From: an uncultured Aurantimicrobium sp.
GTDB lineage: Bacteria; Actinomycetota; Actinomycetes; Actinomycetales; Microbacteriaceae
Length of the DNA: 33,143 bases
Assembly (NCBI RefSeq): GCF_936931525.1
Contig: NZ_CAKZII010000133.1
Coordinates: 1 to 33,143 of the forward strand
Reading direction: 5' to 3'
In this document: positions 14,167-20,044 of the stretch, piece after piece
How positions within the stretch are numbered: position 1 is the first letter of the stretch
Layout: each line of letters begins with the position of its first letter
Position numbers and translations under genes: made by a program
Notes under the pieces: generated by a model
Told to the model about the DNA's origin: nothing
What the model saw: only the letters and a program-made list of their open reading frames with translations
Databases searched by the model: none

Positions 14167-14236
14167 ATGCCCTGAGAGTGCCCGTCTGCGGCGAGCGCAC
14201 TGGGCGTTGTCAGCAGGACAAGACAGAATAGAGCTC

Positions 14237-14872
14237 GTGAGTTCAGCAGCGAATGTGGCACAAATGCCCGAGACGAAGCCCCAGGCTGAACAACCCCATA
14301 TTGCGTATCTTTCCCGCATGGTCACCGACGGCTCAGATGAAGCTGCCTGGCTTCGTGCGCGCTCTCGTGGCATTACGGCCACGGATGTGGCCAAGCTCAA
14401 TAGCGTGAACGCCATCCCCACGGCAGCGCTCGAGAAACTGCGTGGATCGAGCTTCACTGGCAACGTTTACACCGAGCACGGCAAGACCCGGGAACCGGTA
14501 ATTGCTGCCTGGGTGAAAGAGAACTTCTCTATTGAACCCAGCTCTGCGCTGTTCCACTCTGAAGCTGAGTCTCGCCACCTGGCCACGCCTGACGGCATTG
14601 GCGTCGTGGAGGAAACACTGATCCTGGCGGAGATCAAAACCAGCCAGAAGCCCTTTGAAGGCGTCCCTGCGGGATATCTGCGCCAGGTTTACTGGCAGCA
14701 GTATGTTCTGGGCGCCGAGCGCACCTTGTTTGTGTGGGAACAGCACGAAAACTTCGTTCCTGTCTCCGATACGCCTAAGCACTTATGGATTGAGCGCGAT
14801 GAGCGCGCTATCCGTGACCTCGTCTTCTTGGCAAATGGGCTCATTGGTGAGCTCCACCGCCTCACCAACTAA
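14237..14872 (+). CDS. YqaJ-like exonuclease/recombinase domain protein
   Basis: 211-residue protein resembling the YqaJ (lambda-exonuclease-like) recombinase family of PD-(D/E)XK nucleases. The N-terminal WLRARSRGITATDVAKL matches the family's opening GI.(G/A)(S/T)D pattern. HGKTREPVIAAW supplies the glutamate helix, TPDGIG...LAEIKTS supplies the D...ExK catalytic core, and YLRQVYWQQYVLGAERT the conserved Gln-Tyr helix. GTG 14237 is chosen over a TTG 30 bases earlier because a -10-like CAGAAT ends 7 bases upstream (leaderless start). It is followed 9 bases later by a GNAT gene. No phage genes adjoin, so it is a chromosomal orphan. Confidence 0.8.
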   Translation: MSSAANVAQMPETKPQAEQPHIAYLSRMVTDGSDEAAWLRARSRGITATDVAKLNSVNAIPTAALEKLRGSSFTGNVYTEHGKTREPVIAAWVKENFSIEPSSALFHSEAESRHLATPDGIGVVEETLILAEIKTSQKPFEGVPAGYLRQVYWQQYVLGAERTLFVWEQHENFVPVSDTPKHLWIERDERAIRDLVFLANGLIGELHRLTN

Positions 14873-15493: not shown

Positions 15494-16561
15494 CTAGCTG
15501 CGGTTGTAAGAACCGAGCGCATCCACCAAAGCGTCATTAGCTTCGGGGGAACCCACTGAAATACGAATGCCCGTGCCGGTGAAAGCACGACCAATGATGC
15601 CCCGGCTCATCAGATGAGCCTGCAGGGCATCAGTTTCTTCACCGGCAGCAAGCCAGACAAAGTTGGCCTGTGAGGCAGGTGCATCCCAAGCTGTGGTTGC
15701 CAGATATGCCTCGAGCTTGTTGCGCTCTTCGAGCAAAACATCAATACGCGCCTGGAGTTCAGGCTCTGCTGCCAAAGAAGCAACGCCGGCTGCTTGAGCA
15801 ATATCGGTCACGCCAAAGGGCAAAGCGACTTTGGCGAGACCTTCCATAACCTCAGGCTTCGCCACGGTGTATCCCAGACGCAGAGCAGCAAGACCATAGG
15901 CCTTGGAGAAAGTGTGCAGCACAGCCACGTTCGGGAACTCGCGGTAGAGCTCGAGACCACGAGCTGCTTCTGGATCGTTCTGGAAGTGAACGTAGGCTTC
16001 ATCAATGACCACGAGGACGTGCCTGGGTACCTGAGCCAAGAATGTACGCAGTTCCTCATGTCCCACGGCAGTGCCGGTGGGGTTATTGGGCGTGCAAATG
16101 AAGATGACCTTGGTGGCAGGAGTAATGGCAGCCAGCATGGCAGGTAGATCATGGCGGTGATCAGCAGTGAGCGGAACCTCAACTGGAGTTGCTCCAGCAC
16201 CACGAACCAAGATGGGATACGCCTCAAAGGAACGCCAGGCATAGATCACTTCGTCGCCGTGACCGGCAAAAGCACGGATCAACTGACCCGCAACCTCAAC
16301 AGATCCAGTCCCAAAGGCGAGCTCTGACTCCTCCACACCCAGACGCTTCGCCAGAGCAGCAGTGAGCTCAGGGGCAGCCATGTCAGGGTAACGGTGCATG
16401 GTGGAGGCAGCATCCGTGATGGCTTGAATCACGGAGGGAAGGGGTGGGTAAGGGTTCTCGTTGGAGGAGAGCTTGTGAACCGGACCATCCCAGCCGTCCA
16501 CAGAGGACTTCCCTGGCTTATAGGCCGGGATGTTCTCAATGTGGGCAGGCTGCTTAATCAC
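15494..16561 (-). CDS. pat: Aromatic/histidinol-phosphate aminotransferase (Pat/HisC2 type)
   Basis: 355-residue fold-type I PLP enzyme. The PLP lysine is Lys220 in TFSKAYGLAALRLGY; NNPTG, IDEAY and the C-terminal GIRISVGSPEAND Arg are present. The openings IPAYKPGK and KLSSNENPYPPLPSV and the YAWRSFEAYP motif match the actinobacterial HisC2/Pat group rather than a his-operon HisC. The likely role is the last step of phenylalanine/tyrosine synthesis, although histidinol phosphate may also be used. The start is GTG; TATCGT ends 6 bases before it, consistent with a leaderless start. No his genes adjoin. Confidence 0.85.
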   Translation of the reverse strand: MIKQPAHIENIPAYKPGKSSVDGWDGPVHKLSSNENPYPPLPSVIQAITDAASTMHRYPDMAAPELTAALAKRLGVEESELAFGTGSVEVAGQLIRAFAGHGDEVIYAWRSFEAYPILVRGAGATPVEVPLTADHRHDLPAMLAAITPATKVIFICTPNNPTGTAVGHEELRTFLAQVPRHVLVVIDEAYVHFQNDPEAARGLELYREFPNVAVLHTFSKAYGLAALRLGYTVAKPEVMEGLAKVALPFGVTDIAQAAGVASLAAEPELQARIDVLLEERNKLEAYLATTAWDAPASQANFVWLAAGEETDALQAHLMSRGIIGRAFTGTGIRISVGSPEANDALVDALGSYNRS

Positions 16562-16599
16562 CCTTCAACGATACCGGTGCACGCCCCAGCTAGAAACAG

Positions 16600-16629
16600 A
16601 ACAGGGACCCAGTCACCTGGGTCCCTGTT
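16600..16629 (-). terminator. Terminator after the dimethylargininase-like gene
   Basis: A perfect 13-bp stem (16600-16612 with 16617-16629), 4-base loop. On the minus strand it is followed by a T-rich CTGTTTCTA. It ends the purN-purH-dimethylargininase unit and separates it from the aminotransferase promoter. Confidence 0.85.
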
Positions 16630-16644
16630 CGAATAATGCAGTAC

Positions 16645-17844
16645 TTAGCGCAGACGCACCGAGAGGCAGGTCACGCATCCTTCGAGCTTCTCGAATTCGG
16701 TGATGTCCACGGTGATGACGCGGTAACCAAGTTCACGGAACAGCTCTGCAGACTTCGGAGCTGATGCAGACATCAGCACGGTGTCAGGAGCGAGTACGAC
16801 AACAGCGGTGCCGTGTGCCTCGGGCACAGGCAGGAAGCGGTCAAAGACTGCTGGGTCATCCACCAGGGGTGGGTAACCAATAACGGTGCCATCTGGCAGT
16901 GCGGTCACGGCAGTCTTGAGGTGCAGTGCCTTGGTGACAGGAACAGCAACCACGGTGTAACCCTGCTTGGCAGCAATGGCACGCAGCTGGCGAATACCTT
17001 CACCGTTGGTGCGACCACCGCGGCCAACATAAACGGTCTTGCCCACCTTGAGCACGTCACCACCATCGAGAGCACCGGGGCTCACGATGCGGTCACACTC
17101 AACACCGAGGTCGCGCAGCGTCGCCTCGGTGGCTTCGATTTCAGGCTTGCGGCTGTCAGCGCCGGGGTTGGAGATCACAGCGAGCTTGCCCAGCATGACA
17201 ACGGTGTCTTCGATGAAGACGCTGTCGGCAAGGTCATCGCGAGGTTCAACCTCAACGGTGAGCCAGCCTGCTGCGTTCAGTGCGGCAACGTAGCCATCCC
17301 ACTGCTGGTCAGCGAGCTCAAGGTCAACCTTCTTGCGCTTGATGTGGGTTACAAGACCGTCAGCAAGGGTAGAGGCAGGTGCACGCACGAGAGCAACCTT
17401 GGTGGGAGCGGTTGCAGCACCGCGGGCAATCACTGCGCGCCAGATAGCTGTTCCCGCGGTCACGGCTGCGATGGTGCCAGCAACAACGAAGATGAGATTC
17501 ACACCGAGCAAGGACTGGAAGACACCAGCAAGCACATCAGGAGTGAAGGTCGCACCCTGTGACGCTGCCTGGATGAACATTCCAATAATGGCGGAGATGG
17601 ACGACGCAACCAGACCCACGACCCAGGCATAACGACGCTTGGCCAGGAAGCCCAGAACGCCAGCTAGCAGGAGCAGGAAGAAGAGAATGGTGCTCGCACC
17701 AATGAAGAACGAAGCTGCCTGCCACAGAATGGCTTCTTCAAAGTTGTTGCCAATGAAGAAGGCTAGGCCTGTGACGTTCTGAGTAATCGCTGCAACTGCG
17801 AGTGCAGCTAGTGCAGCAGCGATAAGACGACGTGGTGTGAACAT
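16645..17844 (-). CDS. Membrane-anchored dimethylargininase-like amidinotransferase-fold enzyme
   Basis: 399 residues in two parts. Residues 1-145 hold four hydrophobic helices (about 7-32, 41-67, 73-94, 104-138). From about 148 a complete DDAH/arginine-deiminase-like catalytic domain follows: VALVRAPAS, VDLELADQQWDGYVAAL, FIEDTVV (Glu212), ALDGGDVLKVG, HLKTAVTALPDG (His308) and the C-terminal GCVTCLSVR with Cys393 aligning with the catalytic Cys of DDAH. It probably hydrolyses dimethylarginine or a related guanidine to citrulline or an equivalent at the inner face of the membrane. Typical bacterial DDAH is about 255 residues, so the membrane domain is an addition. AAAGGA ribosome site; 11 bases after purH in the same direction. 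Confidence 0.88.
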   Translation of the reverse strand: MFTPRRLIAAALAALAVAAITQNVTGLAFFIGNNFEEAILWQAASFFIGASTILFFLLLLAGVLGFLAKRRYAWVVGLVASSISAIIGMFIQAASQGATFTPDVLAGVFQSLLGVNLIFVVAGTIAAVTAGTAIWRAVIARGAATAPTKVALVRAPASTLADGLVTHIKRKKVDLELADQQWDGYVAALNAAGWLTVEVEPRDDLADSVFIEDTVVMLGKLAVISNPGADSRKPEIEATEATLRDLGVECDRIVSPGALDGGDVLKVGKTVYVGRGGRTNGEGIRQLRAIAAKQGYTVVAVPVTKALHLKTAVTALPDGTVIGYPPLVDDPAVFDRFLPVPEAHGTAVVVLAPDTVLMSASAPKSAELFRELGYRVITVDITEFEKLEGCVTCLSVRLR

Positions 17845-17855
17845 TTATTTATCCT

Positions 17856-19454
17856 TTAGTGGAAGAAGTGGCGTTCGCCGGTGAAATACATGGTGACTCC
17901 AGCCTTCTGAGCAGCTGCGATGACTTCTTCATCACGCACTGACCCACCGGGCTGAACGACTGCTTTGATTCCTGCAGCGAGGAGAACTTCGAGACCGTCT
18001 GCGAAGGGGAAGAACGCATCGGAGGCAGCAACGGAGCCCGCAGCGCGGTCTCCCGCACGGTTGACCGCGAGGTGGCACGAGTCAACACGGTTGACCTGTC
18101 CCATTCCTACGCCCACTGATGCACCGTTGTGGGCAAGCAGGATGGCGTTGGACTTCACCGAACGGCAGGCCTTCCAGGCGAACTCAAGATCAACGAGGGT
18201 TTCTTCGTCTGCGGCATCGCCGGAAACGAGCTGCCATTCGCTGATGAGTGCTCCTACGCGGGAACCACTATCGAAGAGGTCGGCATCTTGAACCAGGAAG
18301 CCGCCTGAGATCTGGCGGATTTCCTGAGGCTCACGGCCGAAGTCCTCAGGCAGTTGGAGCAGACGCAGGTTCTTCTTGGTCTTGAGAAGAGTCAATGCAT
18401 CGGGCTCAAAGCCCGGAGCAACGAGCACCTCGGTGAAGACTTCACTGACCTGCTCAGCCATCTTGAGGGTGACGGTGCGGTTAGCCGCAATCACACCACC
18501 AAAGGCAGAGACGGGGTCGCACTCGTGTGCGAGACGGTGTGCAGAGGCAATCTGATCCACTGCCTTGTCGCGGCCCACAGCAATACCGCAGGGGTTGGCG
18601 TGCTTGATGATCGCAACCGCAGGGTTGATGAAGTCATAAGCAGCACGAACGGCAGCATCTGCATCAACGAAGTTGTTGTAAGACATTTCCTTGCCACCCA
18701 AGAGTGTGGACTGGGCAATGCCGTGACCACCCTGCTCCAAATACAGTGCAGCTTCTTGGTGCGAGTTCTCGCCGTAACGAAGAATTGATCCACGCTGTGC
18801 CGAAACTGCATAGGTGTCAGGGAACTTCTCATCACGCACAAACCAAGCTGACACTGCGGCGTCATATGCAGCAGTGTGGGCAAAGGCTTCAGCAGCCAGT
18901 GAGCGGCGCTGTTCTAGCGAAGTTCCACCCTTGGCTACGGCTTCCATGATCTCGCCATAGCGAGCAGGAGAGACCACAATGGCCACGTTGGGGTGGTTCT
19001 TTGCCGAAGCACGAACCATGGCGGGACCACCGATGTCGATCTGCTCGATGACATCAGCATCAGCAGCGCCTGAAGCAACGGTTTCGCGGAAGGGGTAGAG
19101 GTTCACCACGACGAGGTCAAACGCCTGGATGCCCAGCTCGTCGAGCTGGTCTGCGTGTGCCTGGAGACGAAGGTCAGCCAAGATACCGGCGTGGACGGAA
19201 GGGTGCAGGGTCTTCACACGGCCGTCGAGAGATTCGGGGAAGCCCGTGACTTCGCTGACGTCCTTGACGGCGTGACCTGCGTCACGAATGGTCTGCGCGG
19301 TGGAACCGGTGGAAACCAGCTCAACACCTGCCGCGCTCAGTGCACCAGCCAGGTCAAGCAGACCGGTCTTGTCACTGACCGAGATCAGGGCGCGACGAAC
19401 GGGAACAACGTCGCGGTGGTTGTAAAGGCTGGGGTCGTGTGAAGGGCCGCTCAT
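17856..19454 (-). CDS. purH: Bifunctional AICAR transformylase/IMP cyclohydrolase
   Basis: 532 residues, last two steps of IMP synthesis. The N-terminal IMP cyclohydrolase (MGS-like) domain has [33 protein letters not shown]-like [15 protein letters not shown] and [16 protein letters not shown]. The C-terminal transformylase shows the catalytic Lys-His pair in IIKHANPCG and ends with [24 protein letters not shown] and TGERHFFH, all standard. The ATG overlaps the purN stop by one base (TGATG). The dimethylargininase-like gene follows after 11 bases. Confidence 0.98.
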
Positions 19455-20044
19455 CAGCGTGCTAACTCCTGAAGGTTGACGTGGGCGTGGGCGATATTGC
19501 GAACGGTGTGAACAATGAGTTCACGCTCGACAATCTTGATGCGCTCGTGCAGAGAAGATTCGGTGTCATCAGCATTGATGGCCACCTCCACTTGCTCAAT
19601 CACGGGGCCAGTGTCGACGCCCTCGTCGACAATGTGAACCGTTGCACCAGTAACTGTTGCCCCGTCTGCCAAGGCGTCACGCACCGCGTGAGCGCCGGGG
19701 TAGAGAGGCAACAATGCGGGGTGCATGTTGATGAGGTTGGGCGAGAACGCGGCAACCACGTTGGCCGGCAGAATGCGCATGAATCCAGCACACACAACCA
19801 GGTCAGGAGAGTAGTCAGCGATCTCAGCAATGAGTGCTTCGCCCCAGCTCACACGGTTCGCGTAGTCAGCAGGTGAGACCACGAAGGTGGGAACACCAAA
19901 CTCGCGAGCGTGAGCCAAACCGGAAGCCTCGTTATCGGCACCGACAGCCACAATCTGTGCAGGGAAAGAGTCGTCGTTCGTGGCCTCGAGCAAGGCACGA
20001 AGATTAGAGCCCGATCCAGAGATCAGGACGACGAGTTTCAGCAC
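19454..20044 (-). CDS. purN: Phosphoribosylglycinamide formyltransferase
   Basis: 196 residues; transfers formyl from 10-formyl-THF to GAR in purine synthesis. [10 protein letters not shown] is the phosphate-binding loop. The catalytic triad occurs at the textbook positions: Asn106 and His108 in [11 protein letters not shown] and Asp144 in [13 protein letters not shown] start with GAGGG just upstream. It lies 9 bases after the DUF6350 gene and overlaps purH by one base, so they form one operon. Confidence 0.97.

Follow-up and report, generated by a model that had tools for sequence, protein, structure and literature searches.

What kind of protein is encoded directly downstream of purH in this Aurantimicrobium contig, and what would an enzyme of arginine metabolism gain from a membrane domain? 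Soluble bacterial dimethylargininase (DDAH) is a single soluble domain of about 255 amino acids; the protein studied here departs from that architecture in carrying four N-terminal membrane helices. In the window, as we call the whole stretch of 33,143 nucleotides analysed, the gene and its flanking signals are as follows.

16645..17844, minus strand: membrane-anchored dimethylargininase gene, 399 codons plus stop
17852..17857, minus strand: AAAGGA Shine-Dalgarno-like sequence, overlapping the purH stop codon
16599..16630, minus strand: intrinsic-terminator-like hairpin directly 3' of the gene, with a 14-bp stem and a T-rich tail

The open reading frame at 16645-17844 starts with ATG and encodes 399 amino acids without an internal stop. 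It is one intact gene, specifying four membrane helices followed by a complete Streptomyces-type dimethylargininase domain. The fusion of a DDAH-like enzyme to a four-helix membrane domain that a sequence-only reading had proposed is thus borne out by a match to the curated model NF045660 and by the helices of an AlphaFold2 model, as is the position directly after purH, with the start codon 11 nt past the purH stop. We take purH to be 17856..19454 and purN to be 19454..20044, both on the minus strand, with purH upstream of the dimethylargininase gene in the same orientation; the window's purH and purN sequences served as queries in our locus searches. The hairpin folds at -31.5 kcal/mol (z -5.96), and beyond it a family search places a class I/II aminotransferase gene, presumably hisC. 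A promoter scan of 16400-18000 returned no sigma-70 site. Elsewhere in the window, at 14207-14872 on the plus strand, a gene with a YqaJ-like nuclease domain adjoins a GNAT gene, a pair also present in a genus-mate (L143).

The identity of the C-terminal part was established by profile and structure comparison. Residues 151-398 score 400.9 bits against NCBIfam NF045660 (cut-off 340), a dimethylargininase model of Streptomyces type going by its name, and the 23 best PDB rows in a Foldseek search with the AlphaFold2 model are all DDAH, with 3rhy at E 2e-21. Alignment to 3rhy, the Pseudomonas aeruginosa enzyme, gave the following assignments.

16648..17400, minus strand: dimethylargininase catalytic domain, residues 149-399 (NF045660, 3rhy)
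17065..17067, minus strand: Asp260, acid of the catalytic triad, aligned with Glu114 of P. aeruginosa DDAH (3rhy)
16921..16923, minus strand: catalytic His308, aligned with His162 of P. aeruginosa DDAH
16666..16668, minus strand: nucleophile Cys393, aligned with Cys249 of P. aeruginosa DDAH
17209..17211, minus strand: Glu212, a substrate-site residue and not the triad acid, aligned with Glu65 of P. aeruginosa DDAH

We take the substrate contacts of the P. aeruginosa enzyme to be Asp60, Glu65, Asp66, Arg85 and Arg132, and its triad to be Cys249, His162 and Glu114. The corresponding contacts in the window protein are Asp207, Glu212, Asp213, Arg232 and Arg278, and the Cys-His-acid triad is present as Cys393, His308 and Asp260. 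The earlier description of a complete catalytic domain with His308 and Cys393 therefore stands, but Glu212 gives up its place in the triad to Asp260. The window protein shares with P. aeruginosa DDAH (3rhy, 1h70) the fold (TM-score 0.91 by target), the triad and the substrate residues, but is only 34% identical to it (Foldseek), has Asp where the other has Glu as the acid, and adds a membrane domain that the P. aeruginosa protein lacks. Similarly, it covers the whole Streptomyces-type model above its cut-off with the key residues in place, whereas that model is 249 residues long and the window protein has about 148 further N-terminal residues with four membrane helices.

We then surveyed the architecture across Microbacteriaceae and beyond. 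Searched with the whole protein, 235 of 299 family genomes gave a match at E <= 0.001, 177 of them at E <= 1e-60 (counted by hand; some are soluble), the weaker remainder being divergent copies or arginine-deiminase-like matches. The catalytic domain was read at 178 loci, of which 130 were fused, meaning three or more membrane segments just upstream and in frame, and 48 were non-fused. The fused loci comprise the window, 51 from the GTDB sample and 78 from a contig scan, collections that overlap and hold 117 distinct catalytic sequences. Their GTDB part covers 41 family genus codes by hand count, and two further codes (g54 and g73) carry the fusion with catalytic residues in place; named carriers among the matches listed include Leifsonia, Salinibacterium, Agreia, Subtercola, Herbiconiux, Agromyces, Plantibacter, Labedella, Rathayibacter and Clavibacter. 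The non-fused loci come from other families (39) and from Microbacteriaceae (9), one of the 48 (L073) lying at a contig edge and being set apart in the count for the first tree below. Membrane segments preceded the enzyme in none of the 39 homologues read outside the family, so that the survey finds the fusion at 130 loci, all in Microbacteriaceae. Loci were chosen by best match and by catalytic-motif patterns (best 80 of 584), a choice that favours intact copies and therefore undercounts dead ones. Left out of the residue table were L145 and L087, which hold no DDAH, and L282/L313, in which the frame is broken. At L313 (G236:C1:856045-857239) two overlapping frames, matching query residues 5-280 and 254-399, meet within the enzyme part, reflecting either a broken gene or a sequencing error.

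The N-terminal part has the properties of a compact membrane domain.

17401..17844, minus strand: N-terminal four-helix membrane domain, residues 1-148 (AlphaFold2, alignment, positive-inside count)

The membrane helices span approximately residues 4-32 (TM1), 37-63 (TM2), 70-95 (TM3) and 117-140 (TM4); the AlphaFold2 model has helices ahead of the enzyme at 4-32, 37-63, 70-95, 102-113 and 117-140, and modelled alone this part reaches a pLDDT of 94.2 and a pTM of 0.88. Over 130 sequences the mean net charge is +1.68 at the N-terminus, +1.36 in loop 2 and +2.04 in the linker, compared to -0.32 in loop 1 and -0.70 in loop 3. By the positive-inside rule this pattern places the enzyme on the cytoplasmic side, making an N-in/C-in topology probable, with the N-terminus, the second loop and the enzyme domain inside. 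The membrane part also fits an anchor better than a transporter, an impression drawn from its sequence and short of proof: Asn116 is kept in 92% of the 130 sequences, and in the helix cores charge is found in about half of them at positions 132, 133 and 136, near the end of the last helix, and in 39% at position 22, which is often His.

No known family claimed the domain convincingly in Pfam, Foldseek or VIA searches, which is not proof of a new fold. Residues 1-148 of the window protein had no Pfam match, and across the membrane domains of 29 members the commonest was DUF7937 (3 of 29, best E 0.0079). Foldseek returned no PDB fold for these residues under E 0.001 (best 1.9), and the best VIA Z against the PDB, 6.4, may for helical bundles mean only a common arrangement. 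A profile built from the domain matched all 18 family genomes with the fusion and none of the 33 without it, so that a stand-alone copy was absent from those 33 genomes; one fused genome (G063) had an additional weak match (E 2.6e-4) that contains a stop. In a sample of the order, nine of 297 genomes matched, strongly in the window's genome and seven others of the family, the remaining match (G373, E 7.7e-4) belonging to another family and having no DDAH around it (L087). In a sample of the phylum, five of 296 matched, three of them strongly and from the family, while G984 (E 5.4e-5) and G1032 (E 2.6e-5) gave partial stretches with a stop. We took the weak matches in G373, G984 and G1032 as chance. 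In the samples searched, the membrane domain occurs strongly only in Microbacteriaceae, fused to dimethylargininase.

We also weighed an artefact, in which two genes were joined by error or a soluble enzyme is made from an internal start. The window does have in-frame GTG codons at positions 138 and 153, the latter with a weak AAGG 8 nt upstream, but a start at GTG153 would remove the enzyme's first strand (150-153 in the AlphaFold2 model). An in-frame ATG, GTG or TTG lies near residue 149 in 114 of the 130 fused loci and is preceded by an SD-like motif in only 15 of the 130. The upstream start, by comparison, has recognizable signals. Taking as start whichever ATG lay closest to 152 codons ahead of the enzyme domain, picked blind to any motif, we found that 96 of the 130 fused loci (for example L141) have a TANNNT -10-like box whose end lies 6-9 nt ahead of the ATG, against none of 109 purH starts; an SD-like motif accompanied 96 of the 109 purH starts, and an SD-like 5-mer the upstream start of the fused gene in nine of 130. 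A TANNNT box just before the start is the pattern of leaderless transcripts in actinobacteria, and these counts therefore suggest that most relatives probably transcribe the fused gene from a leaderless promoter of its own. The five members of the window's genus that were listed, the window among them, have 8-14 nt between purH and the gene, with an SD in place of the -10-like box. The placement in a purine operon thus fits the window's genus, where the SD overlaps the purH stop, a terminator follows and the gene looks like the tail of that operon, but not as a general statement, given the leaderless-type promoter at 96 of 130 loci. Either signal supports the long, membrane-bearing start.

The N-terminal part has also been conserved as protein. 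In ten pairs drawn from five sequences of the window's genus, dN/dS was 0.044-0.258 for the membrane part and up to 0.063 for the enzyme part, some dS values being saturated; dN in the membrane part was 3.6- to 35-fold above that in the enzyme part in nine of the ten pairs, and in the tenth the enzyme part had no amino-acid change. These estimates indicate that the N-terminal part is under purifying selection within the genus. With this, and with the frame running unbroken at 130 loci of many assemblies, no frameshift join was seen and the fusion stands; we regard an artefact of either kind as exceedingly improbable.

How the fusion arose was approached with trees of the quick type, in which many branches are weak. 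On a tree built from 113 catalytic domains, five changes account for the label 'fused', compared to a mean of 36 in shuffles, and the starred branches force at least three; fused rows of Clavibacter type and Rathayibacter type stand outside the main fused group, though weakly supported there. One early gain in the family followed by losses would fit, and is favoured by the shared place and the shared domain rather than by the tree. In Cryobacterium-type genomes (L072, L220, L071/L228) and in G084 (L309) a soluble enzyme precedes ABC exporter genes and, where upstream sequence is available, sits at the purH place; L071 and L228 represent one and the same Cryobacterium stretch, at a contig edge with 185 bases upstream. 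In genus g15 the soluble enzyme lies at another place. Searching 14 loci in six frames beside soluble genes (13 distinct genes, since L264 and L308 are the same one) revealed no membrane-domain remnant, with scores at chance level, and the positive control L143 was found.

The conserved surroundings of the gene bear on whether it works with a transporter. Of the 130 fused loci, 120 have a purH gene upstream in the same orientation (49 of 52 and 71 of 78); five of the ten loci without it have under 1.8 kb of upstream sequence and the others 5.8-7.4 kb. In some genera, such as Leifsonia and Agromyces, purH and the enzyme gene are separated by a Glu/Leu/Phe/Val-dehydrogenase-like gene (for example L082:7250-8326). 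Downstream, a heterodimeric ABC exporter (ABC1) follows on the same strand in 104 of the 130 (38 of 52 and 66 of 78), four of the 26 loci without it having under 3.5 kb of downstream sequence. Such frequent pairing would be expected if enzyme and exporter formed a functional unit, the enzyme supplying or clearing the exporter's substrate. However, among 40 control genomes of the family taken as lacking membrane-DDAH (31 without the membrane domain by profile, the other nine with no whole-protein match or, in G030, only a weak one), ABC1 was found in 28, and in 21 of these 28 directly after purH, that is, within 4 kb on the same strand. Conversely, the window's genus has the enzyme but no exporter at the purH place. 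Enzyme and exporter dissociate both ways, and shared gene order therefore explains their pairing. Transport coupling through the ABC exporter was accordingly set aside, a functional unit of the two being very improbable, and the earlier suggestion that membrane anchoring couples the enzyme to import or release was not supported.

Three soluble relatives from other families (L089, L090 and L093) adjoin a permease gene of the basic amino acid/polyamine antiporter type. Coupling to this permease was rejected, since it neighbours three of 48 non-fused and none of 130 fused loci.

The substrate was considered through the residues of the site. Equivalents of Cys393, His308, Asp207, Phe210 (which aligns with P. 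aeruginosa Phe63), Asp213, Arg232 and Arg278 are kept in all 129 other fused loci and that of Glu212 in 128; the triad acid is Asp in 112 of these and Glu in 17. Across the 48 non-fused loci the sole departure at the same positions is one Arg132 to Thr, and the catalytic domain is 42-67% identical to soluble relatives outside the family (39 loci). The substrate-site residues examined being conserved as in the soluble enzymes, the sequences do not point to the distinct substrate that had been proposed. The protein belongs to the same fold superfamily as the arginine dihydrolase ArgZ/AgrE and the arginine deiminase ArcA, and passes the broad Pfam family PF02274 (35.9 bits, cut-off 22.8), but it falls far below the models specific to these enzymes, with 26.3 of 489.1 bits for arginine deiminase (TIGR01078) and 32.6 of 450 bits for arginine dihydrolase (NF052232). 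The same chemistry on another substrate, as a membrane-proximal arginine deiminase or a hydrolase of another guanidino compound, would sit well with the membrane location and with the permease beside three of the 48 non-fused relatives, and draws on a precedent: according to the excerpted text of PMC4569260, Rv2323c of Mycobacterium tuberculosis (gene of 909 bp), annotated as DDAH, is needed for growth on arginine. The DDAH name may therefore not tell the physiological substrate, and the authors of that text state there that they are aware of no functional study of a prokaryotic DDAH. Rv2323c resembles the window protein as an actinobacterial DDAH-annotated protein tied to arginine use, but by model name it probably belongs to the NF045659 subgroup, against which the window protein scores 60.6 of 300 bits. 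Set against the match of the site to DDAH and the low model scores, another substrate seems rather doubtful.

A different view of the protein comes from relatives with a dead active site, which surfaced in a last search of 30 chosen genomes, all with a match. Genus g21 carries fused copies in six of six family-sample genomes (L283-L288 in G020, G293, G100, G255, G161 and G211), 27-34% identical and downstream of purH. All six have Arg in place of the catalytic Cys, Gly or Ala in place of Glu212 and Ser or Ala in place of Lys310; in five, His308 has given way to Arg or Pro. In G008 (L274, genus g9), also with the fusion downstream of purH, His308 is replaced by Gln and Cys393 by Ala, whereas its genus-mate G091 (L110) keeps both Cys and His; a further copy, in G017 (L293), is more degenerate. 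The profile recognized the membrane domain in all eight dead or degenerate copies (best-domain E 3e-7 to 5e-38; 17 ORFs searched). The frames of the dead copies are open, and the former catalytic part in g21 is still constrained (dN/dS 0.135-0.40, four pairs). A second quick tree places g21 beside the intact genus g73 and has two changes between intact and dead, so that at least two losses of catalysis are probable; the branch of L293 is very long there and pairs with L274. Because the anchored protein was kept after catalytic loss in at least two genera, hydrolysis is not the whole reason for its upkeep in them, and we argue that, in the dead-site lineages at least, it also has a value apart from catalysis.

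These copies are the main ground for seeing the protein as a membrane-bound sensor or regulator, in which the DDAH fold at the membrane would sense an arginine-type ligand or retain a partner there, catalysis being secondary. The retention of the fusion after purH in g21 (six of six) and G008 despite replacement of Cys and changes at other site residues, the open frames and the continued constraint in g21 all agree with it, as does the rarity of such loss elsewhere: Cys and His are kept in 60 of 60 non-fused rows checked (48 plus 12, near-duplicates and one contig-edge row included). However, both residues are also intact in all 139 other fused sequences checked (the window, 129 and 9), although searches by similarity and catalytic motif favour intact copies. 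The faster membrane domain (3.6- to 35-fold at amino-acid sites in nine of ten genus pairs) and the helix cores, in which only the end of the last helix has residues that most sequences keep charged, also speak against a sensor, and the dead copies, having lost substrate residues as well, may have taken another role. On balance a sensor or regulator seems unlikely. The dead copies recall RESC5 of Trypanosoma (8dpk), for which the excerpt of PMC12936278 describes a DDAH fold kept without catalysis, a precedent relevant to the g21 and G008 relatives; RESC5 is a subunit of an RNA-editing complex according to the same excerpt, whereas the site of the window protein is intact.

Together, our results make it reasonably likely that the window encodes a membrane-tethered, cytoplasm-facing dimethylargininase of Streptomyces type that makes citrulline, with the membrane part as anchor or platform. 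The N-terminal four-helix bundle would hold the DDAH domain against the inside of the cytoplasmic membrane, where Cys393, with His308 and Asp260, would attack the guanidino carbon of free N-omega-methylated arginine, releasing methylamine or dimethylamine and forming citrulline, which could return to arginine through ArgG. The membrane part would most likely serve as an anchor or assembly platform rather than as a transporter. Substrate, reaction in the cell and anchor role are the parts of this account that we infer. ArgG and ornithine carbamoyltransferase both have matches over cut-off in the window's genome, so that citrulline should be usable by the cell. As the window's copy is intact and its residues conserved, we take it to be a working dimethylargininase.

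What is new here is the architecture; the enzyme is a known one, and the system is not of a new kind. No paper in the open-licence PMC text combined 'dimethylargininase' or 'dimethylarginine' with 'Microbacteriaceae', and among the matches listed from that literature none was, by title and abstract, about a membrane-bound bacterial DDAH. The only mention in the excerpt of PMC2922099 is of a citrulline-generating dimethylargininase in peptide-synthesis neighbourhoods. The curated model covers only the enzyme half, and a membrane architecture spread through a family has therefore gone unnamed in the libraries searched.

More speculatively, the protein could link the binding of an arginine derivative to a partner in the membrane, for which it would serve as a platform; hydrolysis would then be one of its outputs, and a dispensable one. 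If so, the dead-site copies (g21, G008 and possibly G017) would show the non-catalytic role alone, and the protein would amount to a membrane-bound equivalent, in bacteria, of DDAH pseudoenzymes. The finding raises the questions of why a dimethylargininase should be held at the membrane and why the anchored protein is kept once its active site is dead. The natural set of fused active, fused dead and, in Cryobacterium and G084, soluble enzymes at the same locus makes the role of the anchor directly testable.
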